The notes below the pieces were generated by a model. The model was not told where the DNA came from and did not search any database. It worked only from the letters and a program-made list of their open reading frames with translations. A program made the translations under genes and the position numbers. This document shows, one piece after another, positions 29,161 through 64,000 of a stretch of DNA of 64,000 nucleotides (positions are counted from its first letter, which is position 1; each line of letters starts with the position of its first letter). Source of the stretch: Pomacea canaliculata (lineage: Eukaryota; Mollusca; Gastropoda; Architaenioglossa; Ampullariidae); assembly GCF_003073045.1 (NCBI RefSeq), contig NC_037596.1, positions 27,502,392 through 27,566,391 on the forward strand, read 5' to 3'.

Positions 29161-29680
29161 CACCGGAAAGGTGATGGGGATTCTGGCACCTTCCCGCCAG
29201 TCAAGAAGGCTGAATAGCTTGTTGGGGCTGTTTTGGGATTGTGGATTCTGGCATGGCAGCAACCTCATTCACCCCCGCCTAGAGTGGGATGTTATTGCTG
29301 GTTGGCTTCAGAGCAAACTGTGGTGTTGTTGTCACCCGAGGCACTGGGGATTCGTTGGCATGGCACCAGCACCCCCGCCAGGGTTCCAGATTTCAGAGCA
29401 CCAACCCTGGCTGGATGTGTCGCTTTAGGCAGGGCTGGGGTCTGGGCCTTCGCCAGCTGGCCATGGCAGGATGGTGACACGCACCCCGCAGGTCCAGAGT
29501 CACCACCGCAGAGGATAAGAACAAGTGTCGCAAACGTACTACGACAACAGCAGAATAACCGATTATAATACACATGCTACCGCATATTAACAACAAACCC
29601 CACAACAAACACAATATAGAAACGCTAGGAGACAAGAGAGATGGGATTCGCGAATGGTCAAAAACCAACTCGCCAGGTCA
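29160..29680. other. Break between the two satellite blocks
   Basis: The satellite decays into scattered pieces (for example GCACCCCCGCCAGG near 29370) mixed with unrelated sequence. About 29510-29650 is AT-richer and lacks the repeat. It may be a degenerate array edge, an insertion, or an assembly join between two arrays. Confidence 0.6.
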
Positions 29681-35600: not shown

Positions 35601-38600
35601 GCACCCTCGCCAGGTCCAGAGGCACCACCCTGGCTGGAAGGCAGGGCTGGGGATTCTGGCATGGCACCGCACCCTCGCCAGGTCCAGAGCACCACCCTGG
35701 CTGGAAGGCAGGGCTGGGATTCTGGCATGCACCGCACCTCGCCAGGTCCAGAGCACCACCCTGGCTGAAGGCAGGGCTGGATCTGGCATGGCACCGCACC
35801 CTCGCCAGTTCCAGAGCACCACCCTGGCTCGGAAGGCAGGGCTGGGATCTCTGGCATGGCACCGCACCCCTCGCCAGGGTCCAGAGCACCACCCTGGCTG
35901 GAAGCAGGGCTGGGGATTCTGGCATGGCACCGCACCCTCGCCAGGTCCAGAGCACCACCCTGGCTGGAAGGCAGGGCTGGGGATTCTGGCATGGCACCGC
36001 ACCCTCGCCAGGTCCAGAGCACCACCCTGGCTGGAAGGCAGGGCTGGGGATTCTGGCAGCACCGCACCCTCGCCAGGTCCAGAGCACCACCCTGGCTGGA
36101 AGCAGGGCTGGGGATTCTGGCATGGCACCGCACCCTCGCCAGGTCCAGAGCACCACCCTGGCTGGAAGGCAGGCTGGGGATTCTGGCATGGCACCGCACC
36201 CTCGCCAGGTCCAGAGCACCACCCTGGCTGGAAGGCAGGGCTGGGGATTCTGGCATGGCACCGCACCCTCGCCAGGTCCAGAGCACCACCCTGGCTGGAA
36301 GGCAGGGCTGGGGATTCTGGCATGGCACCGCACCCTCGCCAGGTCCAGAGCACCACCCTGGCTGGAAGGCAGGGCTGGGGATTCTGGCATGGCACCGCAC
36401 CCTCGCCAGGTCCAGAGCACCACCCTGGCTGGAAGGCAGGGCTGGGGATTCTGGCATGGCACCGCACCCTCGCCAGGTCCAGAGCACCACCCTGGCTGGA
36501 AGGCAGGGCTGGGGATTCTGGCATGGCACCGCACCCTCGCCAGGTCCAGAGCACCACCCTGGCTGGAAGGCAGGGCTGGGGATTCTGGCATGGCACCGCA
36601 CCCTCGCCAGGTCCAGAGCACCACCCTGGCTGGAAGGCAGGGCTGGGGATTCTGGCATGGCACCGCACCCTCGCCAGGTCCAGAGCACCACCCTGGCTGG
36701 AAGGCAGGGCTGGGGATTCTGGCATGGCACCGCACCCTCGCCAGGTCCAGAGCACCACCCTGGCTGGAAGCAGGGCTGGGGATTCTGGCATGGCACCGCA
36801 CCCTCGCCAGGTCCAGAGCACCACCCTGGCTGGAAGGCAGGGCTGGGGATTCTGGCATGGCACCGCACCCTCGCCAGGTCCAGAGCACCACCCTGGCTGG
36901 AAGGCAGGCTGGGGATTCTGGCATGGCACCGCACCCTCGCCAGGTCCAGAGCACCACCCTGGCTGGAAGGCAGGGCTGGGGATTCTGGCATGGCACCGCA
37001 CCCTCGCCAGGTCCAGAGCACCACCCTGGCTGGAAGGCAGGGCTGGGGATTCTGGCATGGCACCGCACCCTCGCCAGGTCCAGAGCACCACCCTGGCTGG
37101 AAGGCAGGGCTGGGGATTCTGGCATGCACCGCACCCTCGCCAGGTCCAGAGCACCACCCTGGCTGGAAGGCAGGGCTGGGATTCTGGCATGGCACCGCAC
37201 CCTCGCCAGGTCCAGAGCACCACCCTGGCTGGAAGGCAGGGCTGGGGATTCTGGCATGGCACCGCACCCTCGCCAGGTCCAGAGCACCACCCTGGCTGGA
37301 AGGCAGGGCTGGGGATTCTGGCATGGCACCGCACCCTCGCCAGGTCCAGAGCACCACCCTGGCTGGAAGGCAGGGCTGGGGATTCTGGCATGGCACCGCA
37401 CCCTCGCCAGGTCCAGAGCACCACCCTGGCTGGAAGGCAGGGCTGGGGATTCTGGCATGGCACCGCACCCTCGCCAGGTCCAGAGCACCACCCTGGCTGG
37501 AAGGCAGGGCTGGGGATTCTGGCATGGCACCGCACCCTCGCCAGGTCCAGAGCACCACCCTGGCTGGAAGGCAGGGCTGGGGATTCTGGCATGGCACCGC
37601 ACCCTCGCCAGGTCCAGAGCACCACCCTGGCTGGAAGGCAGGGCTGGGGATTCTGGCATGGCACCGCACCCTCGCCAGGTCCAGAGCACCACCCTGGCTG
37701 GAAGGCAGGGCTGGGATTCTGGCATGGCACCGCACCCTCGCCAGGTCCAGAGCACCACCCTGGCTGGAAGGCAGGGCTGGGGATTCTGGCATGGCACCGC
37801 ACCCTCGCCAGGTCCAGAGCACCACCCTGGCTGGAAGGCAGGGCTGGGATTCTGGCATGGCACCGCACCCTCGCCAGGTCCAGAGCACCACCCTGGCTGG
37901 AAGGCAGGGCTGGGGATTCTGGCATGGCACCGCACCCTCGCCAGGTCCAGAGCACCACCCTGGCTGGAAGGCAGGGCTGGGGATTCTGGCATGGCACCGC
38001 ACCCTCGCCAGGTCCAGAGCACCACCCTGGCTGGAAGGCAGGGCTGGGGATTCTGGCATGGCACCGCACCCTCGCCAGGTCCAGAGCACCACCCTGGCTG
38101 GAAGGCAGGGCTGGGGATTCTGGCATGGCACCGCACCCTCGCCAGGTCCAGAGCACCACCCTGGCTGGAAGGCAGGGCTGGGGATTCTGGCATGGCACCG
38201 CACCCTCGCCAGGTCCAGAGCACCACCCTGGCTGGAAGCAGGGCTGGGGATTCTGGCATGGCACCGCACCCTCGCCAGTCCAGAGCACCACCCTGGCTGG
38301 AAGGCAGGGCTGGGGATTCTGGCATGGCACCGCACCCTCGCCAGGTCCAGAGCACCACCCTGGCTGGAAGGCAGGGCTGGGGATTCTGGCATGGCACCGC
38401 ACCCTCGCCAGGTCCAGAGCACCACCCTGGCTGGAAGGCAGGGCTGGGGATTCTGGCATGGCACCGCACCCTCGCCAGGTCCAGAGCACCACCCTGGCTG
38501 GAAGGCAGGGCTGGGGATTCTGGCATGGCACCGCACCCTCGCCAGGTCCAGAGCACCACCTGGCTGGAAGGCAGGGCTGGGGATTCTGGCATGGCACCGC

Positions 38601-39862
38601 ACCCTCGCCAGGTCCAGAGCACCACCCTGGCTGGAAGGCAGGGCTGGGGATTCTGGCATGGCACCGCACCCTCGCCAGGTCCAGAGCACCACCCTGGCTG
38701 GAAGGCAGGGCTGGGATTCTGGCATGGCACCGCCACCCTCGCCAGGTCCAGAGCACCACCCTGGCTGGAAGCAGGGCTGGGGATTCTGGCATGCACCGCA
38801 CCCTCGCCAGGTCCAGAGCACCACCCTGGCTGGAAGGCAGGGCTGGGGATTCTGGCATGGCACCGCACCCTCGCCAGGTCCAGAGCACCACCCTGGCTGG
38901 AAGGCAGGGCTGGGGATTCTGGCATGGCACCGCACCCTCGCCAGGTCCAGAGCACCACCCTGGCTGGAAGGCAGGGCTGGGGATTCTGGCATGGCACCGC
39001 ACCCTCGCCAGGTCCAGAGCACCCACCCTGGCTGGAAGCAGGGCTGGGGATTCTGGCATGGCACCGCACCCTCGCCAGGTCCAGAGCACCACCCTGGCTG
39101 GAAGGCAGGGCTGGGGATTCTGGCATGGCACCGCACCCTCGCCAGGTCCAGAGCACCACCCTGGCTGGAAGGCAGGGCTGGGATTCTGGCATGGCACCGC
39201 ACCCTCGCCAGGTCCAGAGCACCACCCTGGCTGGAAGGCAGGGCTGGGATTCTGGCATGGCACCGCACCCTCGCCAGTCCAGAGCACCACCCTGGCTGGA
39301 AGGCAGGGCTGGGGATTCTGGCATGGCACCGCACCCTCGCCAGTCCAGAGCACCACCCTGGCTGGAAGGCAGGGCTGGGGATTCTGGCATGGCACCGCAC
39401 CCTCGCCAGGTCCAGAGCACCACCCTGGCTGGAAGGCAGGGCTGGGGATTCTGGCATGGGCACCGCACCCTCGCCAGGTCCAGAGCACCACCCTGGCTGG
39501 AAGGCAGGGCTGGGATTCTGGCATGGCACCGCACCCTCGCCAGGTCCAGAGCACCACCCTGGCTGGAAGGCAGGGCTGGGATTCTGGCATGGCACCGCAC
39601 CTCGCCAGGTCCAGAGCACCACCCTGGCTGGAAGGCAGGGCTGGGGATTCTGGCATGGCACCGCACCCTCGCCAGGTCCAGAGCACCACCCTGGCTGGAA
39701 GGCAGGGCTGGGGATTCTGGCATGGCACCGCACCCTCGCCAGGTCCAGAGCACCACCCTGGCTGGAAGGCAGGGCTGGGGATTCTGGCATGGCACCGGCC
39801 AGGTTGGCTGGAGCAGGGCTGGGGATCTCTGGCACCAGGTCCAGAGCACCACCCTGGCTGCA
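29680..39862 (+). repeat. 67-bp satellite, right block, near-perfect core
   Basis: Same unit and orientation as the left block, roughly 150 copies. The edge at 29.7-30.8 kb is ragged and regularity rises to the right. From about 36.1 to 39.75 kb most units are identical, and the remaining differences are nearly all single-base deletions (CTGGGATT for CTGGGGATT, CCAGTCC for CCAGGTCC, GCATGCACC for GCATGGCACC). The block ends abruptly with a few broken units at 39790-39862. Confidence 0.97.
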
Positions 39863-40602
39863 GCTCTTTGGGGCTCTTGGCTCTTGGCTCTTGCTTGGCT
39901 CTTGGCTCTTGGCTCTTGGCTCTTGGCTCTTGGCTCTTGGCTCTTGGCTCTTGCTCTTGGCTCTTGGCTCTTGGCTCTTGGCTCTTGGCTCTTGGCTCTT
40001 GGCTCTTGGCTCTTGGCTCTTGGCTCTTGGCTCTTGGCTCTTGGCTCTTGGCTCTTGGCTCTTGGCTCTTGGCTCTTGCTCTTGGCTCTTGGCTCTTGGC
40101 TCTTGGCTCTTGGCTCTTGCTCTTGCTCTTGGCTCTTGGCTCTTGGCTCTTGGCTCTTGGCTCTTGGCTCTTGGCTCTTGGCTCTTGGCTCTTGGCTCTT
40201 GGCTCTTGGCTCTTGGCTCTTGGCTCTTGGCTCTTGGCTCTTGGCTCTTGGCTCTTGGCTCTTGGCTCTTGGCTCTCTTGGCTCTTGGCTCTTGGCTCTT
40301 GCTCTTGGCTCTTGGCTCTTGGCTCTTGGCTCTTGGCTCTTGGCTCTTGGCTCTTGGCTCTTGGCTCTTGGCTCTTGGCTCTTGGCTCTTGGCTCTTGGC
40401 TCTTGCTCTTGGCTCTTGGCTCTTGGCTCTTGGCTCTTGGCTCTTGGCTCTTGCCTCTTGGCTCTTGGCTCTTGGCTCTTGGCTCTTGGCTCTCTTGGCT
40501 CTTGGCTCTTGGCTCTTGGCTCTTGGCTCTTGGCTCTTGGCTCTTGGCTCTTGGCTCTTGGCTCTTGGCTCTTCGCTCTTCGCTCTTCGCTCTTCGCTCT
40601 TC
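39863..40602 (+). repeat. Heptamer satellite (GGCTCTT)n
   Basis: About 105 units of GGCTCTT with occasional GG loss (CTCTTGCTCTT) and five terminal CGCTCTT variants. It starts directly at the end of the 67-bp array, at GGCTGCAGCTCTTTGGGG. Seven is not a multiple of three and the unit has no stop, so frames continue open from the 67-bp array. Confidence 0.97.
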
Positions 40603-46600: not shown

Positions 46601-46806
46601 TGACATACCAACAAACTTTCTCAACACACACACACGAATATTATAAAAAGTAATTATTCTCGCTGTTGTATACACTTTGTATAGCTTCAAGATACCAAAG
46701 AGATTAAACAAAGTCTATGAAACTGTAGGCAGCACCGATTATGCACACACTCCTCTTGTTATTTTGGATGACAACACCAGTCTCCACGTTTTAGTTGCTT
46801 TGCAAG
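43621..46806. other. Intergenic, nothing firmly recognised
   Basis: AT-rich with a GC-rich island at about 44400-44580 and an A-rich run at 44845-44870. No domain or splice structure supports a gene here. Confidence 0.45.
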
Positions 46807-48357
46807 ATGTGCTGCGAGGCAGATGACTTGACCTTAGTCGGGAACATGTCCTCCATCTACAATGGCTCTCGACAATTTCAGACCTTGGGTAGTCTCGCTG
46901 CTTTCAATAGTTTTCAGGCTTGCGAGACCAATTCCAGAATAGTGCATTGTGGTCTCATGCCTCCTCTTTTCTTCATCGGTGCTCCTGCCAACATCCTCAC
47001 AATGATCGTCTTTTATCGTCAGGGACTGCGAGACCGGATGAACCTTTGTCTTTTCTCTCTTGCCCTCGTCGATCTCATGTACATCACAGCTCTGTTCATT
47101 CCAGCCCTCCACTGCTTCATTGGCATCTTTACACCAGACCAGAAAGAGTTTTGGAGACTTACTTTCATCAAACATGTTGTCAATTTTACCAATGGTTTCG
47201 GGTATCCATCAGGACTTCTGACAATGATTATTGCCACGGAGCGGTGCGTGTGTTTTGTTTCCGATGAGGGCCACACGACTGATGAAGACGAAGACGATGG
47301 GAATAACTGTGACGATGTCGATGATGTTGATACAGATTCTGTGTGGCGTATATGTTGTCAAAGAAACTCTAGCATGTGTACAAAGCACAACAACTGGACA
47401 ATATCGTTTCGTTCTTACAACTACCCAGTTGTTTCTCGGCAACAGCTTTTTTAGAATTATCGAGAACATCCTCCTATCATTTATTTCTTTCTTCAGTTTT
47501 GCTATTGTGGTTTTGGCCACAACCTTAACTGTGATAAGACTGCGCAGTGCTGCCGTCTGGAGGAAGTCCACTTCAAGGTTAATGCATTTGTAATTTGATA
47601 ATCTCATTAAAAGTGTTTTTATTTAAACTGTTTTGCTGTGTTTGTAGAATTCTTTCTTGTAGGATTAGAACCTATGTGTATTGTAACACGAAAAACTCAA
47701 AGCTTACAATAATTTATTGAACTTCGTGAAGGTAACCATGTTTGAATGATATTCATTGTATTTATCTCATCTGGTGTTATAGTTCTGAGGCCTAGATGAC
47801 TGTTAAGCCACATGTGAATGACATTTGTCCTTTTTATTAAATTTCTTATTACTTTCTAAAATTCAGCCTGTTCACCGCTCATTGCTCACTCCTTGGTACT
47901 CTCTTGTATTGCTTCGTCTTCTCTTTCTCTTCTTATAACATCTCTTCCAAAATATATATGGCAAAACATTTTTGAAAACGCCGTCTCAACGCCCTAGCGA
48001 ATAATTATTTATTATATTCACAGTGCAGGATCGCACCAGAAAGGTCAGGCGGTGTTGATGAAGATGTTGCTGGCCGTGTCGTGTATCTACATCCTGTGCA
48101 CGGCTCCTAATGTTTCTCTGGCCCTGACCAGGTACACTGTCCCAGAGTTTCGCGCAGACGGTCTGTACTGCAACATCTTCTCCACCACCCATCTCAACGG
48201 TTTTTTGATCAGCATGGTCAACTCCTCCTTCAATTTCTTCGTCTACTTAGCGATGTCGTCCCGCTTTCGCCACGAAGTAAAGATGCTGTTTAGTAGAAAA
48301 GGCTTGATGTTCTATACTTATTCCCTAGATTATACTACTTATCATTTTAAACTATAA
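46807..48357 (+). CDS. Chemosensory-type class A GPCR, two exons, frame broken once
   Basis: Exons 46807-47577 (donor AAG/GTTAAT) and 48024-48357 (acceptor CACAG), joined in phase within a serine codon. The N terminus carries NMS and NGS glycosylation sites. TM1 has PANILTMIVFY, TM2 LALVDLMY, TM3 ends ATERCVC in place of DRY, TM4 and TM5 follow, TM6 has LLAVSCIYILCTAPN, and TM7 ends NSSFNFFVY in place of NPxxY. The layout (FYRQGLRDRMNLCLF, then TERC) resembles gastropod chemosensory receptors; the ligand is unknown. At about 47250, in a GTGTGT run after ATERCVC, the frame shifts: the upstream frame runs into an acidic stretch, while the frame offset by one base continues with VLFPMRATRLMKT. 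Two missing bases there would explain it, either as a pseudogene or a sequencing error. The upstream frame would stop at 47454. Confidence 0.75.
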
Positions 48358-49089: not shown

Positions 49090-50124
49090 TATCGTCATGC
49101 ATTTATTTATACTGCAAAATGCAGCATGCAAACAATATCGCAATGATGTGAGCAGCGCATTAATTGTCATAAATACTGTTTTAACAGTCGACATTTAAAA
49201 TAGAACGAGGAGGGAAACTCTATCCTCCCTGTTCACTCTACGGTTACCTTTACCGAAGGAAAGGTTGAAACGAAAGTTTGTTCTGTGCCATGAGTGGAGC
49301 TGGTGTTACCATGAATTGTGTAGACCTTCAACCATTTCCTAAATATTATACGCTTGTCAAGAAACGAAAAAAGGAATGGAGATATGGAGACTGTGGATGG
49401 TGTTCGGCGTTTGCCTACTTTTTATAAAGTCAGCCATTCAGGTAATGCAGTAATTATTCGTTTAACTCACAACGTACATAGCGACAAAGTGTGTGTTGCT
49501 AACAGTAGACGAAGCGCTGAATGCCTGCTATAAAATTTCGACCGGTATTTTTCTTTTTTAATTATATCTGTTAACCTACAAAGTTTTCAATTATCGGTGA
49601 TACTCCCTTTTAAAGATCATTTCTAAACATTTATGTGGTGTAAATTTTAAGACATAGATTTTGTCTACTGGTAGTAAAAAAAAAAAATAAAAGATTGGAA
49701 GTGTATGCGACAGAGAATTCACGAATCGGGAAGTAGGTCAACCGTTAGAAATTTTTAAAAATATATTTACACGATATCAACAAAAATACAGTATCAAACA
49801 AACATATTTTTTAGAATATGCATTATATTTGAAATAGTAATTACTGTCGTCTTCTTATTTTTAGCTGTTTAAGTACAAATTCTTGTTGAATTGAGTAACC
49901 GGTGACCTACTTTAACATGGCGCTTGATGACAGAATCTTTGCCTACTTTTAAATATCACAAAATACCTGATTGGTTAATTTTTTCAGCTGCGAAGGGGAC
50001 GTAGTCTATAATGAAACAACTCGTAAAGGTTACAGTTCTTGTCCCCCACCCCCTATGTATTCATTTATATACGCACAGAGTGGTGTGTTCTAAGAAGCAA
50101 GATTGTGTCCAATTTATAAAATGT

Positions 50125-50275
50125 AAAGTTGTCATACCTCGCCGCCGACACCAAGCTCACCGGATTTGGATGGGGTCAGCTGGTGACGGTAGCCCAGGAC
50201 AGGAGGCGTTGGAGGGCGGTCGTCGATGGCCTATGCACCAGGAGGGGCGAAAGGCATAACTGAAAGTTGTCATAC
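50125..50275 (+). mobile_element. 5'-truncated LINE tail with 13-bp target duplication
   Basis: The insert at 50138-50262 encodes LTGFGWGQLVTVAQDRRR followed by WRAVVDGLC and a stop, the typical C-terminal end of a non-LTR retrotransposon polyprotein. It is flanked by AAAGTTGTCATAC at 50125-50137 and 50263-50275. The duplicated locus at about 58795-58815 has one uninterrupted version of this site. There is no poly-A tail; the insert ends just after the stop codon. The clade cannot be fixed from 41 residues. Confidence 0.85.
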
Positions 50276-53200
50276 TTCAGTTTTTCTGTAAAAGGTGAAT
50301 GGATAATTTTTTTATTTCACGACGAAGTTTTTATTTCAAGAGAACTGCTAGGTTATATTAACCCTACGCAACTCTCTAACTTTGTCTCCAGTAACCCACA
50401 CAGTTTATGGATAGCGTAGAATAACATAGGGAATAGTTTCATAAGTTCCTATATAGCAACGGAGAACCTTTCCCACATGGGATTAATAAAGGCCATCGTG
50501 ATTTTCATGTCAAGCCGTTTACTGAAGATACATAATAATAATAACTAATACTAATAACTAATAATAATCCTCCTCCCTCCTGTTACCGATTTTCTTGACT
50601 TAAGAAAACTTTTTCAAAACTATGAAACATCGCATAATTTATTTACAAAAGACAATTTTATAATGTTAATTCTGTAATAGATATTCTGTTTCTTAAAAAG
50701 GTTTAGTTAATGATACAACTATGATTGTGATTGTTTGTGTCAGGTTCGACTATCGTAGGCTGTGAGCAGGGCAAAGTGGACGTGGAGGAAGGCACAAACC
50801 ACTCATTCTCGTGTGTTGAATTGCCAGGGATGATTTATGATAGCAATGGACGTGCTCTCTGTTACTGCAGTAGTTATTATTATTATTATTATTACGGCTA
50901 CTTGTGTCAGCTTGTAATATATTTTGGTGTATCAGAATATTTATACAGCTGCTATCAAAACTCCTACTTAACTGTGATACCAAGAGACTCGGCTAGCAGG
51001 ATTATGTGGGATTACTATGGGACACGTGCATATTGCAGTTTAAACATATATGGTATGTAAAAAAACAATTTTTATATACCTTTATATACCTTTTATTTCC
51101 ATGTAAAATCTATCTCTAATTTTGTATCGTCATACATAACCCTTTTCAATATCCATCTATATTTTTTTTTCCTTTTTTAGTGCACTTAAGCTCAAAATCA
51201 AATTTATGTTTGTGATATTGTACACGGTTAGTGATGGTTGGACAGATTTAGATGTTTTAGTAAATCCCTAAACAGTGTAGATTTAAAATGTAAAAACTAA
51301 CATGTACTATTTTAGTTGCATTCATATGTTATCTATAATGTGTCTGGTCAAGCTACCCCAGTGTACCAGAATGACAGCTGCGATGTAAGTATTTCAGACT
51401 GGATGGTTACCGGAAGCTGCAACATAACAGGAATGTATTCTTCCGACAACAATTACACATGCAGCTGGAGAGAGCAAAATAACACCAGGGAGGTAAAACA
51501 TATTTTTTACATTTTTACCACTCGTCTTTTCTTAGTCTCTGCTATGCATGTGTGCGTGTTTGCGTTAGTAGGCGTGTGTGTGTGTGTGATCACTCATCCA
51601 ATTAAATATAAAGATACTGTGTTGCATTAATTCATTAAGTTTTATCAAATGAACTATGTTATTCAAACTTAATTTATAACATAGATTGATGTTTAGTGCC
51701 TTTTAAACGCTGAAATTGTTTACTACCAAACTATTTTTTCAGGAATTCGGGGGTTGGAATGTGCTGGAAGGTTATAAGTGCGGCTAACACAAGACTCTAC
51801 ATGCGGGGTGTTTGCTCATTTACAAGACCAATTCCTTGTCTCAACGGCTCCTATAACTACACATGAGAGTATCACCCGGCTCTGATGAGTTTTACCATAA
51901 CACAATAATTATAGGCAAGAAACGCTTTTTGGAAATGGATTTAATCCGAACAGAACAACTGTGTTTACAAATGTAATCTTTAAAGATGACTTTATGAAAA
52001 AAAAATAGGAAAGTTATTACTAAACTAGTTTATTAAATCTGTTTTCTAGGAAGCCAAATTAAGGCATTTACGAAATCATTTGCTTGTTATTAAAGAAAAA
52101 AAAACAAAAAAAAAAAACAACATACACACAAAAAGTTCCAATCAGAGAGTCGATAAAATGTCGATATACGAGAAAGATCCTTCCTTTTTACCTGTACGAT
52201 TTGTTATTTAAACTAGCGCAACATGCAATTACTTGAAAAAATCTGTAGGTTAATAAAAAAGGTCAAAGTCAATATAAAAAGTAAATAAAAATTATAAGTT
52301 TTAATGACCAATTACTTTTTCTTCTATTTAAAGCTTCACCTGATCAGGTGCAACTCAACCTACAGTTGTCCGAGTTATGTTTCTAGAAGGATCAAGTGTA
52401 GTCTGTACATGCAATGCTTCAACAACGGGAAGTCCACCTGGACTTTTGGCTTGGTACGAAATGACAGACGAAACACTATTGCTACTCACAAATGTTAGTA
52501 GGAATCACAAGCGGAAAACAATTTACATGTCGATTTGAGTGGGGTTCAAATGGAGCCATCAAAGCATTTATTTCTTACATACCTGACTGTTGCTTGTAAG
52601 TAAACTTTTTCGATTGGTTTAATACATACCATCCTTGCAACAATTATATATTTTATCTAATTCATCATTATATGTAACTTCCGAACATTTTCCACAAAAA
52701 TATATTTTGTCTTGTCAAAAAAGGAATATTAAAAATCCTATTGGAGAAGTAACTTCTGCCATATTTTTTTATATTTATTGATTGAAGAGATAGGTTTCAC
52801 GCATACTCTCACTCAAATATATATGCAGACAATAATTCATATATTTACTGTATCCCTGAAAGACTATGCTGTGCTCAAAACAACTGTTTCTATGTTTAGA
52901 TGGACCATCCGATGTGATCATAAACAGAATTGCAGAGACAGCTGATGATCAGTCCGGGAGAATACGTTTTATCTGTTCAGCTATTTCTTTCTATCCTTCG
53001 GTTATGTTTCGATGGAACATTACATGTGAAAGTCAGACTGACTATACACACTTCAGTGTGTGCTCCATGAACATCATTCACACAGCGGACCGTGTGGTGA
53101 TAGAGTGTACAGCCAACAACACCTACTTCCCTGAGGTGTTCTTTTCGACTGTCTATGACTTGACTATTGAAGGTAGATAGTTATTGCTTATTGCATATGG

Positions 53201-54632
53201 CGTAAAAAAGTTTTTGTACATATTAGAATCAGTAATAACAAAACTAACAAAAGTCTGAAAATTGTGACAATTGTCTATGCTTAGAACTTTCTTTTATAAT
53301 CGTATTCCTTTTTTGCAAGAATTGTAAAATATCTTGTTTTAGACAACGATGTTATCTGTTATTTATCGAGTCGTGCAAACCGAAGCATCTGTAAGAAAAA
53401 AGTTGCGAAAAACAATTGTTGCACTCTCAAATGAACAATATTATAATCGACACATAATAAGTAAAAAGTTGTGTACGTTTCTAATTTTGATCATGATAAA
53501 GCTTCTACTGTTATAGAAAACAAGGAATCATCAGCACAAGGTGTAAACACAGCCGTCGTTGGTGGTGTCGGAGCAGCTGCTATTGTGTTACTAATCATCG
53601 TCAGCAGTCCTCGTTGTGTTCATCATCAAACGACAAGGTTGTTGGCATGTACATAATTTTTTTTACTGTAGACTAATATGACGGCTGTACTAGTCACGTA
53701 CCGCTCGAACTTTGTATATCTGCGCAAGCAAACAATAAAACTGAAAATCTTACTTTTACTCCCATCACACGTGCAACATTTAATTGTTCTATCATTTTGT
53801 ATGATCAATTTACACATTTTGGGTATAGTTTTTTTCCATGTAAAACTTAGTCATATATAATTGCTATAACGTACCCATCTTTACCAATTTTTGTCTCAAT
53901 TCTTTTAGGACTTTGATCTCAGTCCGGTTATATTATATTTTATATTTGTGTTAACATATTAGACCCCAAAATATGAATCTAAGCATAAAAAAGAAGCAGC
54001 ACATTTAATAAGTGTGGAAACATCAGCACAAAAATTGTTAATGAAAATTTATGTTGCTTATGAATGGCGAAGAAAAAAAAAAAACCACTAATACTTCTTT
54101 ATGCAGTCTTCAAGAGACCAAAGTCGCACACTTCAAATGACCATCAGTCAGCTTATTCGGAGGAAATTTACTCTATCCCCGACTTTTACTACTGCTGGCC
54201 ACGGAGTGGACAATGCAGCATTCAATGAGATGATAGAAAGCAGCGGGACCAGACACGTGACTTACGACAATCGCTGCGTGACACAAGAGATTGCCGGATG
54301 TGAGATAGCAAGGAATCCTCTAACAAAGCAAACGCCAGCCATAGCAGGGAAACACAGCTGTGAAGATGTATCTCAGGTAAAAATATTGTTTTGTTTGTCA
54401 TTACCTATAAATAATTCAACCTTGGAGAGGTACACACCGACCTACATAAGAAAACGAGTCTAAATGCTCTTCCATTATTACTCCCAGGGGATATAAAGCA
54501 AGTCAATCCTCAGGTATTGAGTTACTTGCCCTTAGACTCCAGCCAGCTTTTCATACATTAACCCTAATTATTTGGTTAACTGTCTGCTTATTTTACTTTT
54601 GAGGCAGTGTTCTCTGTAGTAAGGGTGAGTGA

Positions 54633-54638
54633 ATAAAT
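54633..54638 (+). terminator. Candidate polyadenylation signal, copy 1
   Basis: AATAAA in GTGAGTGAATAAATCGTAC, about 120 bp after the exon 9 remnant. The matching position in copy 2 is 63552. Confidence 0.45.
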
Positions 54639-55065
54639 CGTACTTAATTAATATTGATGTTGTTTTTTAGTTCGTGTTGGTATAGTTTGTAGTGCTTGTA
54701 GACAAGCTATCATAATGCTAAACTATTTCTTGGCTCAGATACTTCCTGTGCCCATGTTGCGAAGTGTAACGAAGATGAAAATATTTATGAGAATGTGGGC
54801 AACTGAAAGAAGCAAGGGTCTTATATTGCAGGTATGTGAAAATTAATGGTTGTTCTGTTTACAGTGTAAACATCGAAAGAAGTGTAAAAAAATCAGTAAT
54901 ATGATTTTTTCTGCACTGAAACTTTATACAAACTATAGTTTGAAAAAAGCTTTTTAATGACTATATAATGTAAGGAAAAGTTGAAACACAAAAATTTACA
55001 TCTTTTTTTGGGGAGGCTAAATTTTACATTACTAGAAAACAATTCAAACGCGAGCAAATAAAACT

Positions 55066-57809
55066 TTATAACGAATAAATTTTTGATGCACTTTGATAGG
55101 TATGGGATTGCAGAAATCGTGTTTATATATACATTTAATATATTTTTTCTTTCTCTTCCCTTTATGCAGTTTATGTTGCGACAAAGTCTACTTCCTGTTG
55201 GTAAAGGCCGCACACTTGTGTTTATAAAATGTTGCATAATTATGTTACTCATCGAAACTTTTATGATGAAGTAATTAATATTTAGTAACATGCAGGCTCA
55301 AAATTAACCAACACTAGTGATTTACTTTGAAACGTTATCGTAATTTTGTTAAAGGCGAATTTGATGTCCTCATCCTTTACATATTGATATCATGATGACC
55401 GATAAGAAGCTGCACACTTGCTGAAGAAAGCCACGAGAGAGATCGGGATAGAAACCCACATCCTGTATTAAATTTGATGTTTTTGCATTTAGTAGTAACT
55501 CTATTTATGCAGAAGTAGAATTATATTTAAATGTAGGTATCAGTAACAATGTGGATTAGAGTGTTCTACAGAATATGCAGCCTAATATGGTAACATATTT
55601 AGAAAAAAATCCTTGTTCATAGACTCTCCTTATTTTCAGCCATGTTAAACCCATTCTCTTCTTTTTTTCTTACACATGTTTATCCAGTGCGTTAGTTCTA
55701 TTTAATTTTTTAGTCTACAACGAACACTCATATTTTCGTGTACTACTGCCCTTTGGATGTTCTATAAAATATAACAAAATGACACACCTACATGGAGATA
55801 AAAATACGACACAAGACAAACATAACACTCATGTTTTGTCTACAATCAAGTGTGATTTTGTAGGCAGGCTTTTAATTTTACCTGCGTGATGATGTAATAA
55901 TCTTTTAGATGATAGACTTGATGTTGGATCTTTTGCAAAGTAATAAAGTTCGGCCATTAATACCTTTTAGTTGCCTATTTTGTGAGTGTATTGCTTTCTA
56001 TTTGTCACAATGGTTGTGCATTTGAGAATCATACATATACACACAGATACTCCCTAAACATACATAAGGACCTAGGTGTGCCTTAATAATAATAATTTTA
56101 CAACTTTTTGTAAACTCATATGTTTGTTCTGTAAATTATGCAAAAATGAAAAAGTTTTTTCTTTAAAGAGCTATAGTTTGGGGCAGACAACATAAACAGG
56201 CATACTCTTTCGTCGCTTGATGTAAAAGTGATGGAGACTCCTACGACAGATTAAAAACCACAGCTGCTATAAATAATACTTTCTTGAAGCCGGTGATTTG
56301 TAAAGACTTCATGACAAAAAGATGATAAAATAACTGATATAAAGCTGATAATATCAGAAAGAAAAATACAAACTTTATTACAGCTATAGCAGGTACTCAT
56401 ATAATCAATACAAGGCGTCACCTACCCTGACCATGTACTCCGTTAGGACTGGTCAGCGAAAGGGGAGCTCACTTGCTCGTGTCATACACGTCGTTATTCC
56501 CTTGACAGCATGCTTTTCTAGAACTATATTTAAGGGCAATAGTTATGTTTTCACCTGGATAATAACTCGCACATGTTATTCATTTGCCTATAAACTACCT
56601 TACGGGAACTTGATCTTATAACAGCTGAATAAAAATGGAAGACAGTACAATTTTCATGCTAAAAAGTTGTTAAATGAAATAGTATATGTTACCAAATATA
56701 TCAATGAAATGTGCTATACTTTGGCAATACATGGCTTTAAAAAATTATAATACATTATAAAATACTTTGCATTGTTTGTAAATGAATAAGTACATAAGGG
56801 AGGCAACTATTGTAATCTTTAAGATTTTTCCACTATGGATTACCTTTCTTGCAAATGTCTACATGGTATCAGGTTAAAAGCAAAGCGACTGGAAACTGCA
56901 ATTTTACAGCAACATCAGTCGGGGATACCCTGATCAATAAGTTAAAGTTGCAGCACGTCTAATAATATCTACAAAACGGAAATTTAATCTCTGTGAAATT
57001 AATACACTTATAATTATTTGCATCGAATACTGTGCAGGTGGAAAAGTGTGAATTATGGCTTTAGCTCCCTCTTTCGTTCATAAACAAAAAGAAACTACAC
57101 CTGTTTTTGCAAGCCTGTGTGTTTTTTTTCATTACAATTATAAATATCGCCGTTTGAAGAGTGGATCAACTGTCAAACCTTACACCTAAAACAGAGCTTT
57201 AAATGATTAAGATATTATTGGAATAATGAGGCTTTTTTTTTTTAAAAATAGTTTACTTTCTTGCATTAGGTCAGACGACATGCAATTTAACATGAATGAA
57301 TCAGATCTTTTTCTGTCTCTGATGACCCATATGATTTTTTTAGTATTCTGTATATTTAAGAGTGCAAAAAGTGGAACGAAATTATCCGCTGTTTCCTCCG
57401 TTTCAATAACTCGTTAAACCTATTTAGCAGCCACTGCTAGTCTCTTTGAGAAGTAGAAAAATGAAGTGTCTTAGTGGTTTATAAATGGGTTATACATTTA
57501 TTAAAGCTCATGTAGACCGACGAAACATTTACAGGAGCATCAATCTTTCAACAACAAAGAGAACAACCTATCTAATGTTTCGGTAATCAGAAAAAGAAAA
57601 AAATGTTTTGAAATGAATGAAAAGACAAACAAGTGCCCTATGAAAGTGGAGGTGTGAATAAATGTAATTAATCTAATAAACACCATCTCAGTTCTTTTCA
57701 GGTTCCACATGCACTTACAATCTTCAACCACAAAATGTTAACAAAGATAAGACATGGACAATTTAAATTGCTGTCTTAAAAAATTTATTTTTATTTTGCT
57801 TGTGTATTA
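55066..57809. other. Spacer between the two receptor copies, nothing recognised
   Basis: AT-rich, with no domain or splice-supported exon. It may hold distal regulatory DNA, but none can be identified. Confidence 0.45.
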
Positions 57810-58115
57810 TTCGTCATGCATTTACTTTCTTCTGCAAATGCAGCATTCAAGCAATATTGCAAGCAATGTGAGCAGCGCATTAATTGTCATAAATACTGTT
57901 TTAAGAGTCGACATTAAAAATAGAACAAGGAAAGAAACTCTACTCTCCCTGTTCAGTCAACGGTTACCCTTGAGGAGGAAGGGTTTAAAGAAGAACGAAA
58001 TTATGTTCAGTGCTGTGCGAGGAGCTGTTGTCACCATGAACTGTGTAGACAAATTTTAGACAAAGTTACCCATTTATTAAATATTTATTCTCTTGTCAAA
58101 TAAACAAAAACAGGA

Positions 58116-61100
58116 ATGGAGATATGGAGACTGTGGATGATGTTCGGCGTTTACCTACTTTTTATAGTCGGACATTCAGGTAATGGCGTAATTATTCGTT
58201 TTAAGCTTGGCATATTATTTTCATAAGCGACCACGATCTATCTGTTCAGGTGTTTGACTTAGTATCGAGCTTCTTTAAGCGTGTGTTTGTGTTTTTGCTT
58301 TGTGCTTATATTTGTTCGCGAACATTGTATTTGCTTTATGTGATGTATTGTATGGTTTGTTTGAAAATTATGGTCCGCTATCCCTTGCTCGTATTTTCAG
58401 AAGATCGTGTAGTTGTCATGGTTTGAACTTTGTTATTTAATCTCCTAGATAAGTAAAAGTCACGTGGCAACCAAGTTTTGCTACAAAAAATTATGTTAAT
58501 GAATCGTATTTGTAATGATAAGAATAAAATCAATATTTTTTGTGAAAAAGGTAATTTATAGATGGACTTATCGAGTTTTCGAACCTACACGACAATGTTT
58601 CGTTGTCAAGAACATCGACAAGAGAAATTCAGAGCGCCTTCCTACAACATGCATGAACCCTATGTGACTTTGTCTAATTCTGATCAAGAGTTGTCATCCA
58701 GAACTATAGCCAAACATTTTACCAACACCCAAAAGTGGAATATCCACGGGTTCTATGGAGCTTATGGATACCAAGATTGTGTTCAATTTATATAATGGAA
58801 TGTTGTCATACTTCATAAGTTTTATTCTTCAAATGATTTCAGTAGCCTTTAGGGTGTTATATTTCTGGCTAACTTTGTTCAAGTTACTTGCATAGGTTTT
58901 CAAGGGAAACGGAATAGTTAGATAGTTTTTATATAAGGGAGCACCTTTCCCAGATATTTAAATTGCTCAATGGGACTAATAAAAGCCATCGTCATTGCCA
59001 TTGTCAAGCCGTTTAAAAAAGAACTAATAAAAATAAAAAAAAATAATTCACTTTGTTAGCGACTTTTTCAGAAATGCTGCTTGATTTAAGAAAAAAGCAT
59101 TTATAAAAATATTGAAGATCACATAGTTCCTTTTCAAAAGGCTATTTTATAATGTCGAAAAGCTTATGAGAAAAAACAAGAAGTAAGCAAAGTTTTTGCA
59201 ACTGCTTAAACTTTGTAATAATAACTTGTTAATTCTGTAATAGGTGTTCTGTTTCTTACAAAAGGTTTTGTTGATGAGACAACCATGGTTGTGATTGTTT
59301 GTGTCAGGTTCGACTATCGTAGGCTGTGAGCAGGGCAAAGTGGACGTGGAGGAAGGCACAAACCACTCATTCTGGTGTTATGGATACACATGGAGGGTTT
59401 ATGATAACAATGGAAATACCCTCTGTGACTTGAACTATTTCCCTTACTCGTGGTGGAGCTTGTAATATATTTTGGTGTATCAGAATATTCATACAGTTTC
59501 TGTAGAAACTGCACAAATGTGACCAGGAGAGACTCACTTCGCGGGATTATTTCGGATTGTTATGGGAGTCCTGGCATATTGCAGTTTAAAAACATCTGGT
59601 ATTGAAAACCAATCTTTATATACCTGTATGTACCTGATCGTCTTTTTTTCCCTGTTAAAATCTATATCTCTACTTTTGTATCCTCCTTAATCACTGACAG
59701 GGATTTAAGTTTCAATATTCATATATAATTTGTTTACTTCTTCTAGTGCACTTAGTAAGATCAAAGTTAAATTTATGTTTGTAATATTGTTTCATGGTTA
59801 GTAATGGTTGTACAGATTTATAAGTCTTAGTAAATCCCTAAACAGTGTACATTTATACAAACTAACATGTGCGATTGTAGTTAGATTCATACCTTATCTT
59901 AAATTTATTTGGTCAAGCTACCCCAGTGTACAAGAATGACAGCTGCGATGTAAGTATTTACGACTGGACGGTATCCGGAAGCTGCTACATAACAGGAATG
60001 TATTCTTCCGACAACAATTACACATGCAGCTGGAGAGAGCAAAATAACATTAAAGAGGTAGAACATATCATTGTTTATATCTCCAATCTTTTTACCACTG
60101 CTTTTCTTAGTCTCTGCTACGCATGTGTGCGTGTTTGCGTTAGTAAACGGGCGTGTGTGTGTGTGATCGCTTACTCACTTACACATGAAGATCTTGTGCT
60201 CAATCAATTCATTAGTTTTTATCAAAATAATCTTGCTGTTTAAACCCAATGATCGAGGTTTTTAAGTATGTATTATTGTTGTTCAATATCAATAAAAATA
60301 TAAAACTTCGTTTACTACCAAAATATTGTTTCAGGAATTCGGGGGATGGAATGTGCTGGAAGGTTATACTGCGACTAACAAAAGACTCATGCGAGGCGTT
60401 TGCTTATTTACAAGACCAATTCCTTTTCTTACCGGCTTTTATACCTACATTATGAGAGTGTCACCCGGCTCTGATGTGTTTACAATAAAACAATAATTAT
60501 AGGCAAGAGACGTTTGTTGAAATTAATTTAATCCGATGAGACAACGGCGTTTTTAAAAATGACTCTATGCAATAAAATTTTAGGAGAATTATTACTAAAC
60601 TAGTTTTTTAAAGCCAAATTAATGCATTTATTAAATCATCTGTTTGTTTTTAAGGAAAAAATACAAAAATTGCCAATCTGAGAGTCGAGAAAATGTTTAT
60701 TCCCGAGAATGATCCTGTCGTTTTACCATTAAAGATTTTGTTATTCAAACTCGGCAAAATGCAATTAACTGAAAAATAAGCAAATGAATAAAAAAAAGCC
60801 AAGGTCAATATAAATAAGAATAAAATGTTATTAGGTTTTAATGACGAATTATTTTTTCTTCTATTTAAAGCTTCACCTGATCAGGTACAACTCAACCACA
60901 ATTGTCCGAGTTATGTTTTAGAAGGATCAAGTGTAGTCTGTACATGCAATGCTTCAAGAACGGGAAGTCCACCTGGACTTTTGGCTTGGTACGAAATGAC
61001 AGACGCAACACTTCTACTCACAAATGTTAGTAGAAACACAAGTGGAAAACAATTTATATGTCGATTGGAATGGGGTTCAAATGGAGCCATCAAAGCAGTG

Positions 61101-61414
61101 ATTTCTTATATACTGACTGTTGCCTGTAAGTAAATGTTTTTCGATTGGTTTAATACATACTATTTTTGCAACAACTGAAAATTTTATCTTATTTATCATT
61201 ATCTGTGACTTCTAACATTTTTCACACAAATAGTTCTTTGTTGTAAAAAAAGCCCGAAATATTTCTAGTAATCGGTGCCCTTTTGTTTGAGATTCCTACA
61301 CATTATTGCTAGCACTAACCTAATAAGATAATTCTTTCAAAATGCTATTCGATATGCTGCTTTGAACATTTTTTATTAAATATTTATGGATGGAAGAGAT
61401 AAATTTCATGCATA

Positions 61415-61456
<42 letters not shown>

Positions 61457-63746
61457 ATACAGATATATCTATGTAGGCAAGAATTAATCTGTTTACTGTA
61501 TCTCATGGAGCACTATGCTGTACTGTACTATGTCTTATATTTCTAGATGGGCCATCTGATGTGATCATAAACAGAATTGCAGAGACAGCAGACGAGAAGT
61601 CCGTGATAATACGTATAACCTGTTCAGCTATTTATTTCTTTCCCTCGGTTAAGTTTCAATGGAACATCACATGTGAAAATGAGACTGACTATACACACTT
61701 CAGTGTGTGCTCCATCAACATAACTCACAGAGTGGACCATGTGATGATAGAGTGTACAGCCACCAACACTTACTTCCCTCAGGTCTCCTTTTCACGTGTC
61801 TACATGATTTGACTATTGAAGGTAGAGACTTATTGCTTATCGAATGTGGATACTCTACATTTAATCGAATCAATAATAACAAAACCTAACAACAGTCTTA
61901 ACAAGCTATGACAATTGTTCAGGCTCGGAACTTTCTTTCATAAATTATTAATATCGCAACAGTTGATTTTCGAAAAACATAAACATCTTTAATAAAAATA
62001 TTAAATAGTAATTGCTGCATGTTAAAAGTAACAAAATAATCGACAAATAATAAGTCAAAGTTGCATAACTTTCTAATTTTGCCAAAGATTACAACTTTCT
62101 ACTTTATAGAAAGAGAACCGGAAAGCAAGGAATCATCAGCACAATGTGTAAACACAGTCATCGTTGGTGGTGTCGGAGCAGCTGCTATTGTCTTACTAAT
62201 CAGCGCGGCAGTCCTCGTTGTGTGCATCATCAAACGACGGAGAGGTTTGCATGTCTAGAATTGTTTAATGTAGACTAATCTCTAACCTCACTTTATAGTG
62301 TTGGTGGCACTGCAATCTGCAACAATCAAACGATTGTTAGACACACTGCGTTCTAATGAGTTCGTGCTCGTACCGCTAGAATTTTGCATTACTGCTCGAG
62401 CAACCGGCGCATCTGTGAAAATTTTAACTCTCATATATCTTTGTTACAGGTGTTTCTTTTATTTCAACCACTGAGAAGAACTATAACAAACAGCTAGTAT
62501 TAGCCTTCTACATTTAATATTGCTATGGATTTTTCTCTAATTTGTCGGATCATACATTGAACAGCCAAAACATATATTAAGCTTTACACATTTTGTGTAG
62601 GATCTTTTTCTTCCTACAAAGTTTAGTCATTTATAATTGCACCAACGAACATTATCTTAACCATTTTTGTCTCCAGCCTTTTAGGATTTCATCTCAGTCC
62701 GGTTATATTATATTTTATATTTGTGTTAACTATATTTTAATACTAAAAAATTAAAACCTAGCAATATTAGCGTGAAAACATCACCACAAAAATTGTTTAT
62801 GAAAATTATGTTGCATGTATGCGTGCCTAACGACAGGAATGGCCAAGAAAAAAGAAAACCCGCTGTCCCATCTTTATGCAATCTTCAAGAGACAAAAGTC
62901 GCAGGTTTTTACTGACCATCATTCAGCATCAGTGGATGAGATTTACTCTATCGCCGACTCAACTACTGCTGACCACGGGGTGGACAATGCAGCATTCAAT
63001 GAGACGATCCATAGCAGCGGGACTAGACACGTGACCTACGACAATAACTACGTGACACAAGAGATTGGTGGACACAAGACAGCAATGAAACCACTAACAA
63101 AGCCAATGCCAGTCACAGCAGGAAAACACAACTGTCAAAATTTATCAGGTAAGAATATTGTTTTGTTTGTCATTACCTATACACAATCGGAGAGGTACAC
63201 ACCGACCAACACAAGAAAACGTCTATAAAATGCATTCTGCTAAATATTTCATCATTGCTAACTAAGCGACAGACATGTTTTTGATGAAACTTGTAATTAA
63301 TCCATCTTTACAACAAGCCAGTGCTTCATCATATTTCAGAATCGATGTATGACTCGGGCCTCATGTCCGCCTGCATGGACCATAATTACGAAGACCTCTC
63401 CCCCAAGGGATATAAAGCAAAGTCAATTCTCAGGTACATGAGTGACTCGTACTTAGACTCCAGCCATCGCTTGATACACTAACAAAGATTATTTGATTGA
63501 CTTTCTGCTTATTTTACTTTTGGATGATTGTTCTGTGTAGTAAGGGCGAGACAATAAATTGTACTAATACTAATACTATATACGATTTGGTGATATTAGT
63601 GTTGATATATATCACAGTTAAAATTGTAATGTTTGTACACGATATTGAATGCTAAACTATACATTTCTTTTGGTCAGATACCTCCTATGGCCAAGGCTGA
63701 GAGGTGTAACAAAGATGAAAGTATTTATGAGAATGTGGGCAACTAA
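58116..63746 (+). CDS. Ig-type transmembrane receptor, copy 2, tyrosine-motif tail
   Basis: Exons: 58116-58179, 59308-59598, 59881-60057, 60334 to about 60457-60475, 60871-61125, 61547-61821, 62110-62244, about 62882-63148, 63340-63433, 63678-63746. Signal peptide MEIWRLWMMFGVYLLFIVG; Cys-rich Ig-like exon 2; exon 3 with GSCYITGMYSSDNNYTCSW; Ig-like domains in exon 5 (SSVVCTC, LLAWYEM) and exon 6 (FQWNITC, SVCSINI, VMIECTA), both with N-glycosylation sites; membrane span about GVGAAAIVLLISAAVLVVCI then KRRRG. The tail has DEIYSIAD, HVTYDNNYV, NYEDL and a final SIYENVGN. Phases agree for exons 1-2, 5-9; the joints 2-3, 3-5 and 9-10 are unresolved. Frame breaks appear in exon 2 and near the end of exon 6, and the exon 8 acceptor reads GCAA instead of GCAG. 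Probable phosphotyrosine-signalling surface receptor; function is inference and no named orthologue is recognised. Confidence 0.7.
61419..61458. repeat. CT/CA microsatellite in intron 5 of copy 2
   Basis: CTCTCT run followed by CACACA. Copy 1 has only a short CTCTCACTC at the matching place, so it expanded after duplication. Confidence 0.8.
63434..63482 (+). other. Read-through end of exon 9: alternative short C terminus
   Basis: If the GTACAT donor at 63434 is not used, the frame continues as YMSDSYLDSSHRLIH and stops at 63480-63482, about 70 bp before a polyadenylation signal. This suggests a short isoform lacking the IYENV end. In copy 1 the same read-through meets a stop almost at once. 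Confidence 0.4.
63552..63557 (+). terminator. Candidate polyadenylation signal, copy 2
   Basis: AATAAA in GCGAGACAATAAATTGTAC, at the position matching 54633 in copy 1. It lies between exon 9 and the last exon, so it would serve the short isoform. Confidence 0.45.
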
Positions 63747-64000
63747 AATCAGAATGGGTCTTATATTGCAGGTATGTGAAAATTCATGGTTATTCCGCTT
63801 ACAGTCTAAAAATCGGGGAAAATAAAAATCTCAGTACTAAGATTTTTTGTGCATTGAAATTATTACATACTATATTTTGGAAAATCTTTTTAATGATTCT
63901 TGCAATGTGCAGAAAAAATTGTAAACACAAAATATTACATCTTTATTGTGATGGGGCTGAACTTTATATTATTGGAATAAAATTTAAACGCGAGCAAATA

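Follow-up and report, generated by a model that had tools for sequence, protein, structure and literature searches.

Clustered germline single-pass receptors are already known as a kind. The KIR and LILR receptors of the leukocyte receptor complex and the CEACAM proteins come from gene clusters and combine several immunoglobulin (Ig) domains, a fast-changing distal domain and tyrosine-containing tails of differing kinds. Insect Draper-type receptors, which carry an immunoreceptor tyrosine-based activation motif (ITAM), join an EGF ectodomain to a tail with two YxxL/I motifs and a spacer of 6–12 residues. In gastropods, according to the available portions of the reports, polymorphic clusters of single-pass genes in Biomphalaria are tied to schistosome resistance (PMC7494358), and the LG16 and LG5 clusters of B. 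sudanica hold diverse single-pass genes, some with Ig domains (PMC10875847); TMEM154 or FN3 domains are reported for several PTC1 genes of Biomphalaria. Here we describe a stretch of 64,000 nucleotides from Pomacea canaliculata (C7:27,502,392–27,566,391, where C7 is contig NC_037596.1; hereafter the window) with two direct copies, A and B, of a ten-exon gene for an Ig-type single-pass receptor. On balance, we believe these copies to lie at the edge of a large cluster of genes for germline single-pass receptors, as members that are decayed or in part mis-assembled; the family is probably used in immune recognition.

With KIR, LILR and CEACAM, the Pomacea family has in common the clustering, the multiple Ig domains, the fast distal domain and the varied tyrosine tails. 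However, neither a charged membrane span nor an ITAM of canonical spacing was found among its members, and an orphan Cys-rich domain lies between the Ig domains. The tail with two YxxL/I motifs recalls Draper but differs by a spacer of 15 instead of 6–12 residues, and the ectodomain is of the Ig and not the EGF type. With Biomphalaria PTC1 (GRC) and PTC2 and B. sudanica LG16 and LG5, the family shares its occurrence in a gastropod, tandem arrangement, single-pass topology, a span away from the N terminus and fast change (PMC7494358, PMC10875847). As far as the accessible text of these reports goes, it is set apart by its recurrent V-orphan-Ig-Ig ectodomain and by far more copies on one contig, while neither C-type lectin nor FN3 is matched and TMEM154 is reached only below the cut-off; the likeness described here is one of layout. 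The molluscan VIgL proteins (FREP, CREP and GREP), which act in snail immunity, are likewise multigene products with a signal peptide followed by Ig-like domains, whereas the Pomacea proteins have a span and a tail and no lectin or fibrinogen domain was found in them (PMC10875847, in its available part). The novelty resides in an ectodomain of recurrent V-orphan-Ig-Ig type, in the orphan domain itself, in the number of copies that one contig carries and in the pair of tyrosines with a spacer of 15. The best-ranked titles and abstracts, mostly from outside the subscription literature, contained no prior description of this family in Pomacea.

A receptor family concentrated on one contig

A BLASTN comparison of copy A with the window gives seven colinear blocks on copy B, with 67–88 % identity and a total of about 5.0 kb including introns. 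In addition, 18 of the 20 repeat families listed (33 in all in the window) consist of two copies spaced 8.5–8.9 kb apart. In both copies, for which the splice-site dinucleotides were checked, a signal peptide exon (e1) is followed by an Ig-V-like exon (e2), a Cys-rich pair (e3 and e4), two Ig-type exons (e5 and e6), a membrane span (e7) and tyrosine-rich tail exons. The Cys-rich pair forms a single domain with an internal phase-0 intron; the remaining domain boundaries are in phase 1 wherever checked.

The exons recur many times in the genome (440,159,624 bases searched in 24 contigs, of which C7 makes up 30.9 Mb). In single-exon searches, e6 of copy B has 37 matches at E ≤ 0.001 and e6 of a paralog has 55, every one of them on C7. 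For e3, 103 of the 111 matches at E ≤ 1 and 52 of the 54 at E < 0.001 fall on C7, as do 143 of the 150 scored e5 matches (from 198 candidates at E ≤ 0.1, copy A being counted twice). The family comprises dozens to well over a hundred exon copies, nearly all on one contig; these counts refer to exons and not genes and are lower bounds, and the weak matches may represent more remote relatives. By contrast, a search with the middle tail exon of copy B retrieves no more than the two copies themselves and a single weak match, so the tails diverge.

The main groups of e3 and e5 matches on C7 lie at about 2.6–2.8, 20.9–21.5, 24.2–25.1, 27.1–28.2 and 30.7–30.9 Mb. Because none of the matches listed falls between about 27.30 Mb and copy A, the two window copies seem to mark the proximal boundary of the group at 27.55–28.22 Mb. 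Paralogs were sampled in 25 stretches of this neighbourhood (L009–L033, about 245 kb, parts of C7 27.566–28.003 Mb), in which the profile scan finds 20 paralog e3 exons; in 13 of these genes the whole e2–e7 chain was detected, e6 being short in two of them. The matches listed in these stretches all lie on the + strand, head to tail, and most paralog exons found are open. One variant (L010) has the order e2-e3-e4-span, and the profile scan detected no span in two e2–e5 genes (L013 and L021).

The sequence-only reading had seen in A and B a tandem pair with a signal peptide, a Cys-rich exon 3, Ig exons, a single membrane span and tail tyrosines, had assigned it to a paired or multigene receptor family, and had raised the question of further copies in the assembly. 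The pair and each of its parts are present, and the recurrence of e3, e5 and e6, nearly always on C7, upholds the multigene half of the assignment and supplies the copies. The pair as a unit does not survive, since A and B are damaged genes at the margin of a large cluster. A single-copy, slowly evolving gene, which the same reading had named as the opposing outcome, is excluded by the multicopy exons and, for e2, by its rate of change.

Two further observations concern cluster members. A short gene (L016, 6403–7459) has a signal peptide, one V-like domain (e2) and a span, and e3–e6 were not found in it. In two close paralogs e6 is cut short (L025, 4157–4348; L028, 6981–7193); it is longer in their relative L017.

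The distal domain changes faster than the stalk

Among 17 paralogs (L010 and L025 were dropped from this comparison), mean identity is lowest in e2, at 33 %, against 45–58 % in e3–e7. The distal exon, the least conserved of all, shows a lower identity than e5 in 135 of 136 pairs, than e3 in 128 of 136 and than e6 in 59 of 66. The claim of a fast-changing receptor is thereby supported. Between A and B, identity amounts to 87–95 % in e1 and e3–e7, 78 % in e2 and 73–82 % in the four introns measured. Since e1 and e3–e7 are more alike than these introns, the two copies have been under constraint since their duplication, with the exception of e2.

Ratios of nonsynonymous to synonymous rates (dN/dS; Nei-Gojobori) were calculated for eight overlapping gene sets, one of which contains another. 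The values for e2 are 1.49 (A/B), 0.96, 0.59, 0.75, 0.94, 0.93, 1.00 and 0.38, i.e., at least 0.93 in five of the eight, and those for e5 are 0.72, 0.27, 0.31, 0.34, 0.51, 0.51, 0.38 and 0.37; the six sets having e6 give 0.37–0.55 for that exon. Thus e2 exceeds e5 in all eight overlapping sets, most narrowly with 0.38 versus 0.37. When the four two-gene sets are pooled, nonsynonymous and synonymous changes stand at 164:48 in e2 versus 51:36 in e5 and e6 together (Fisher p = 0.0017), in a test that omits A/B for their broken frames and the larger sets for non-independence, and in which two of the four sets have no e6. In most sets e2 evolves near the neutral rate, and e5 and e6 are constrained. 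Positive selection on e2 is plausible, though not proved.

Gene conversion was looked for by following divergence along gene pairs, which is patchy in some of them. In L014 and L026, K is 0.42 in e2, 0.01–0.07 in e3–e5 and 0.11–0.84 in the flanking introns, a pattern that suggests mosaic histories from different lineages.

Modules of the ectodomain

The e2 profile (A2, 15 members) has the Cys pair of the B and F strands and four further well-kept Cys. Single members match the Pfam models ig (best E 5.8e-6) and V-set (0.0013), the first e2 member scoring 26.2 bits, and matches in the PDB include CEA, antibody V domains and CD4 (best E 0.0019, whole chain). For e5 of copy B, PF00047 scores 23.5 bits and thus passes its cut-off of 21.8. 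By these matches to curated models, the gene bearing e2 and e5 belongs to the Ig superfamily, in line with the Ig-type label first given to it. Even the best PDB matches of the e5 profile are weak; they include LRIG1 and LRIG3 (both E 0.028), neurofascin (0.17) and Dscam (0.43). A peculiar e2 is that of L032 (2206–2514), which has Phe at both canonical Ig Cys; its near twin L033 retains both Cys.

The membrane-proximal e6 is weakly Ig-like. Ig_3 matches all nine members (best E 0.0018), with 13.6 bits for the first member versus a cut-off of 30, and the lowest E in the Pfam scan belongs to IgD3_Trs65 (1.7e-4, five of nine members). The best PDB match is a light-chain constant region (E 3.2e-4 for the whole chain, 0.053 for the domain) in which the F-strand Cys is unaligned, and C1-set is found in three of the nine members (best E 0.0021). 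This C1-like similarity is weak and local, and e6 was not accepted as a C1-set domain. Predicted structures of e6 (B and A aligned) and e5 have a mean predicted local distance difference test (pLDDT) score of 41.6 and 39.9, respectively, too low for a fold search.

The orphan domain encoded by e3 and e4 has a profile of its own (A1, 17 members; L025 and L028, from a set of 18 genes, are excluded, and some junction residues were trimmed or set by eye) with ten invariant columns (C9, V18, G20, C22, C36, W38, C69, F71, Y82 and Y84). Nothing convincing was retrieved for it from the PDB (best E 0.88) or Pfam (best E 0.026), and its profile matches neither e2 nor e6, which agrees with the initial impression of exon 3 as something other than a standard Ig module. 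The residue pattern suggests a beta-sandwich. Pfam scans of one joined ectodomain and of single domains gave no FN3, and no lectin domain, including C-type lectin, or fibrinogen domain was found by such scans, which also took in the tails. Rfam returned nothing within the window at gathering scores.

Membrane span and tails

Among the membrane spans found, 16 from paralogs and that of copy B, all 17 lack a charged core. The label 'paired' in the first reading thus finds no support in its vertebrate sense, though differing kinds of tail exon do exist. In the paralogs, tail exon T0 contains DLYTI, DMYTI and others, and T2 contains YMNV and VYHVV. Tail exon T3 has two tyrosine motifs, YNxL and then YxxL/I (YNRF once), and the spacer is 15 residues in all 13 exons read. 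Genome-wide, T3 has 28 matches at E ≤ 1 (17 at E < 0.001) and T2b (DPVYDT..HNYVDL) has 18 at E ≤ 1, all of them on C7.

In 13 of these 18 cases T2b lies 0.8–1.8 kb downstream of a T3 match, and the other five follow e7 without an intervening T3 match. Because the T2b acceptor and the e7 donor are both in phase 1, and T3 reaches a stop in four of the six copies printed, T3 and T2b may possibly serve as alternative tails. In A and B, T0 is followed by a T2b-like exon, of which A has lost part, and the final exon terminates in IYENVGN; no T3 was found between positions 44,001 and 64,000 of the window. With two of five queries made of span and tail, TMEM154 came up at E 0.045 and 0.44 (14.0 and 10.8 bits; cut-off 30.3); both matches being below the cut-off, this identity was rejected.

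Integrity of the two window copies

In comparison with four to five paralog sequences per exon, copy A has eight frame-shifting differences in e1, e4, e5 and e7, namely seven insertions and one deletion. Copy B has four in e2, e4 and e6, those in e2 being within a hard-to-align stretch. The first tail exon needs two frames in A and one in B. Judging from the BLASTN block edges, about 155 nt around tail exon e9 are missing in A, and in B the same stretch holds the acceptor and 5' part of this exon. The profile scan shows four of the twelve A/B e2–e7 exons split or truncated. Of the paralog exons, 10 of 115 cover less than 75 % of their profile, or 7 of 112 without the three cut by stretch ends; four of these seven are e4 of one divergent subgroup, and the counts cover detected exons only, with too-decayed exons outside them. 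Copy A is probably a pseudogene, and copy B may be a pseudogene or partly mis-assembled.

A different explanation, which concerns the window copies only, is that the frame shifts in e1–e7 are residual long-read assembly errors and that at least B is an intact gene. An insertion bias is expected of raw PacBio reads, and the predominance of insertions in A fits raw long-read error. The adjoining gene for a probable G protein-coupled receptor (GPCR) also seems to change frame, and the exons of A and B other than e2 are better conserved than the introns. Furthermore, the published P. canaliculata assembly of 440.07 Mb was built from PacBio plus Pilon, according to the part of that report available (PMC6129957). 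However, the loss around tail exon e9 in A is atypical of sequencing error and, like the disappearance of the F-strand Cys from its e2, fits real decay, and in the same assembly, of 112 paralog exons found away from stretch ends, 105 span 75 % or more of the profile in one frame. We consider this explanation less likely than not.

Function and competing explanations

Immune recognition by haemocytes is probably the most likely use of the family, by analogy with Biomphalaria PTC1/PTC2 and the B. sudanica clusters. On haemocytes, the V-like tip would bind a variable ligand, most likely surface molecules of parasites or microbes. Ligand binding, and perhaps also the glycine-rich span, would cluster the receptors, whose tail tyrosines would be phosphorylated and then dock SH2 proteins; alternative tail exons may alter the signalling output. 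A bolder version, which we put forward tentatively and do not expect to hold in full, would make the family the protostome equivalent of the leukocyte receptor complex of vertebrates, with more than 100 receptor genes on one chromosome, whose products would combine a V-like tip that diversifies, a Cys-rich domain not described before and interchangeable tails, including an ITAM-like pair with a spacer of 15, between which alternative splicing would switch signalling.

Several findings count against a selected family of immune receptors. For e2, a dN/dS above 1 is confined to A/B, where this exon is damaged, and just two of nine overlapping pairs have an e2 that outpaces the introns on both sides, so that relaxed constraint is a possible cause. 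Values above 1 also occur elsewhere, on few changes (2.92 for e3 in one set, 1.13 for e7 in A/B and 1.15 for the first tail exon in one set), the sets overlap, and the alignment of e2 is difficult. As assembled, neither A nor B can be read through, and the window copies are thus not intact. As to signalling, the strict immunoreceptor tyrosine-based inhibition motif (ITIM), [ILVS]xYxx[ILV], occurs in seven of 52 tail-exon matches (T0 1/14, T2 2/11, T3 3/13, T2b 0/12 and the last exon 1/2, the latter being SIYENV in B), and no canonical ITAM was found, given the spacer of 15 in every T3 exon read.

Cell adhesion, homophilic or heterophilic, or another non-immune kind of recognition, e.g., in neural wiring, allorecognition or between gametes, would likewise favour a large and varied set of Ig receptors whose tails carry tyrosines. 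Large Ig families serve adhesion too, and LRIG1/LRIG3, neurofascin and Dscam are among the best, albeit weak, PDB matches of the e5 profile. We nevertheless consider such a role unlikely: a fast distal exon over constrained stalk exons would fit conflict better, as would the traces of gene birth and decay and the uneven divergence, and resistance to parasites is linked to similar clusters in snails in the available text of PMC7494358.

Mostly neutral birth and death, with many copies being relics of little function and the fast e2 reflecting relaxed constraint, appears improbable. It would account for the broken A and B, the incomplete e6 of L025 and L028, the similarly incomplete e5 of L011 and the e2 dN/dS mostly near or below 1. 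It does not sit well with the open state of most paralog exons found, with dN/dS of 0.27–0.72 in e5 (eight of eight sets) and 0.37–0.55 in e6 (six sets), or with T3 tyrosines that hold their spacing in 13 of 13 exons. Finally, a cytokine-receptor-like family with e3 and e4 as the cytokine-binding module, an idea prompted by the C-x13-C-x-W motif of e3, which we take to be reminiscent of class I cytokine receptors, was rejected as very improbable, as the only PDB sequence retrieved by the A1 profile at E up to 10 (E 0.88) is not such a receptor and the Pfam scan contains no family of that kind.

Gene models and surroundings

Table 1. Positions of copies A and B and of their exons in the window.
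Copy	Feature	Position	Strand	Remarks
A	whole copy	49,376-54,806	+	direct repeat, ten-exon gene
A	e1, signal peptide	49376..49441	+	as assembled, out of frame with e2
A	e2, distal Ig-V-like domain	50744..51052	+	F-strand Cys lost
A	e3, orphan Cys-rich domain, first half	51353..51492	+	
A	e4, orphan domain, second half	51743..51914	+	frame-shifted; GC donor
A	e5, Ig domain	52334..52595	+	several frame shifts
A	e6, membrane-proximal Ig-like domain	52900..53172	+	
A	e7, membrane span	53517..53637	+	frame-shifted
A	tail exon, T0 type	54088..54376	+	start is match start, true 5' end uncertain; two frames
A	tail exon e9, remnant	54483..54513	+	relative to B, without acceptor and 5' part
A	last tail exon	54739..54806	+	terminates NIYENVGN-stop
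B	whole copy	58,116-63,746	+	direct repeat, ten-exon gene
B	e1, signal peptide	58116..58179	+	
B	e2, distal Ig-V-like domain	59308..59598	+	frame-shifted
B	e3	59918..60057	+	
B	e4	60335..60502	+	frame shift near end; GC donor
B	e5, Ig domain	60871..61125	+	open
B	e6, Ig-like domain	61547..61821	+	frame shift near end
B	e7, membrane span	62110..62244	+	core without charged residue
B	tail exon, T0 type	62863..63148	+	open; start is match start, true 5' end uncertain
B	tail exon e9, T2b type	63340..63433	+	
B	last tail exon	63678..63746	+	terminates SIYENVGN-stop

The probable GPCR gene lies just upstream of copy A (window 46795–48357). Its second open stretch matches Pfam Srw above the cut-off (6.3e-6), whereas its first has no Pfam match and apparently changes reading frame near 47250. 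Farther upstream, about 18 kb of the window (21669–39797) consist of a G+C-rich minisatellite with a unit of 66–67 bp, noisy in its left part (73–82 % matches, 12–18 % indels) and clean in its right part (96 %), a contrast that suggests uneven assembly quality or age. It is directly followed by about 105 copies of the heptamer GGCTCTT (39872–40601).

Significance

A far larger, Ig-based cluster in the apple snail would extend a strategy like that of Biomphalaria to another branch of the gastropods, and would supply a defined group of candidates for recognition receptors in a snail that is an invasive pest. Direct tests are possible for the fold of the conserved orphan domain and for SH2 binding by the tyrosine pair with its fixed spacer.

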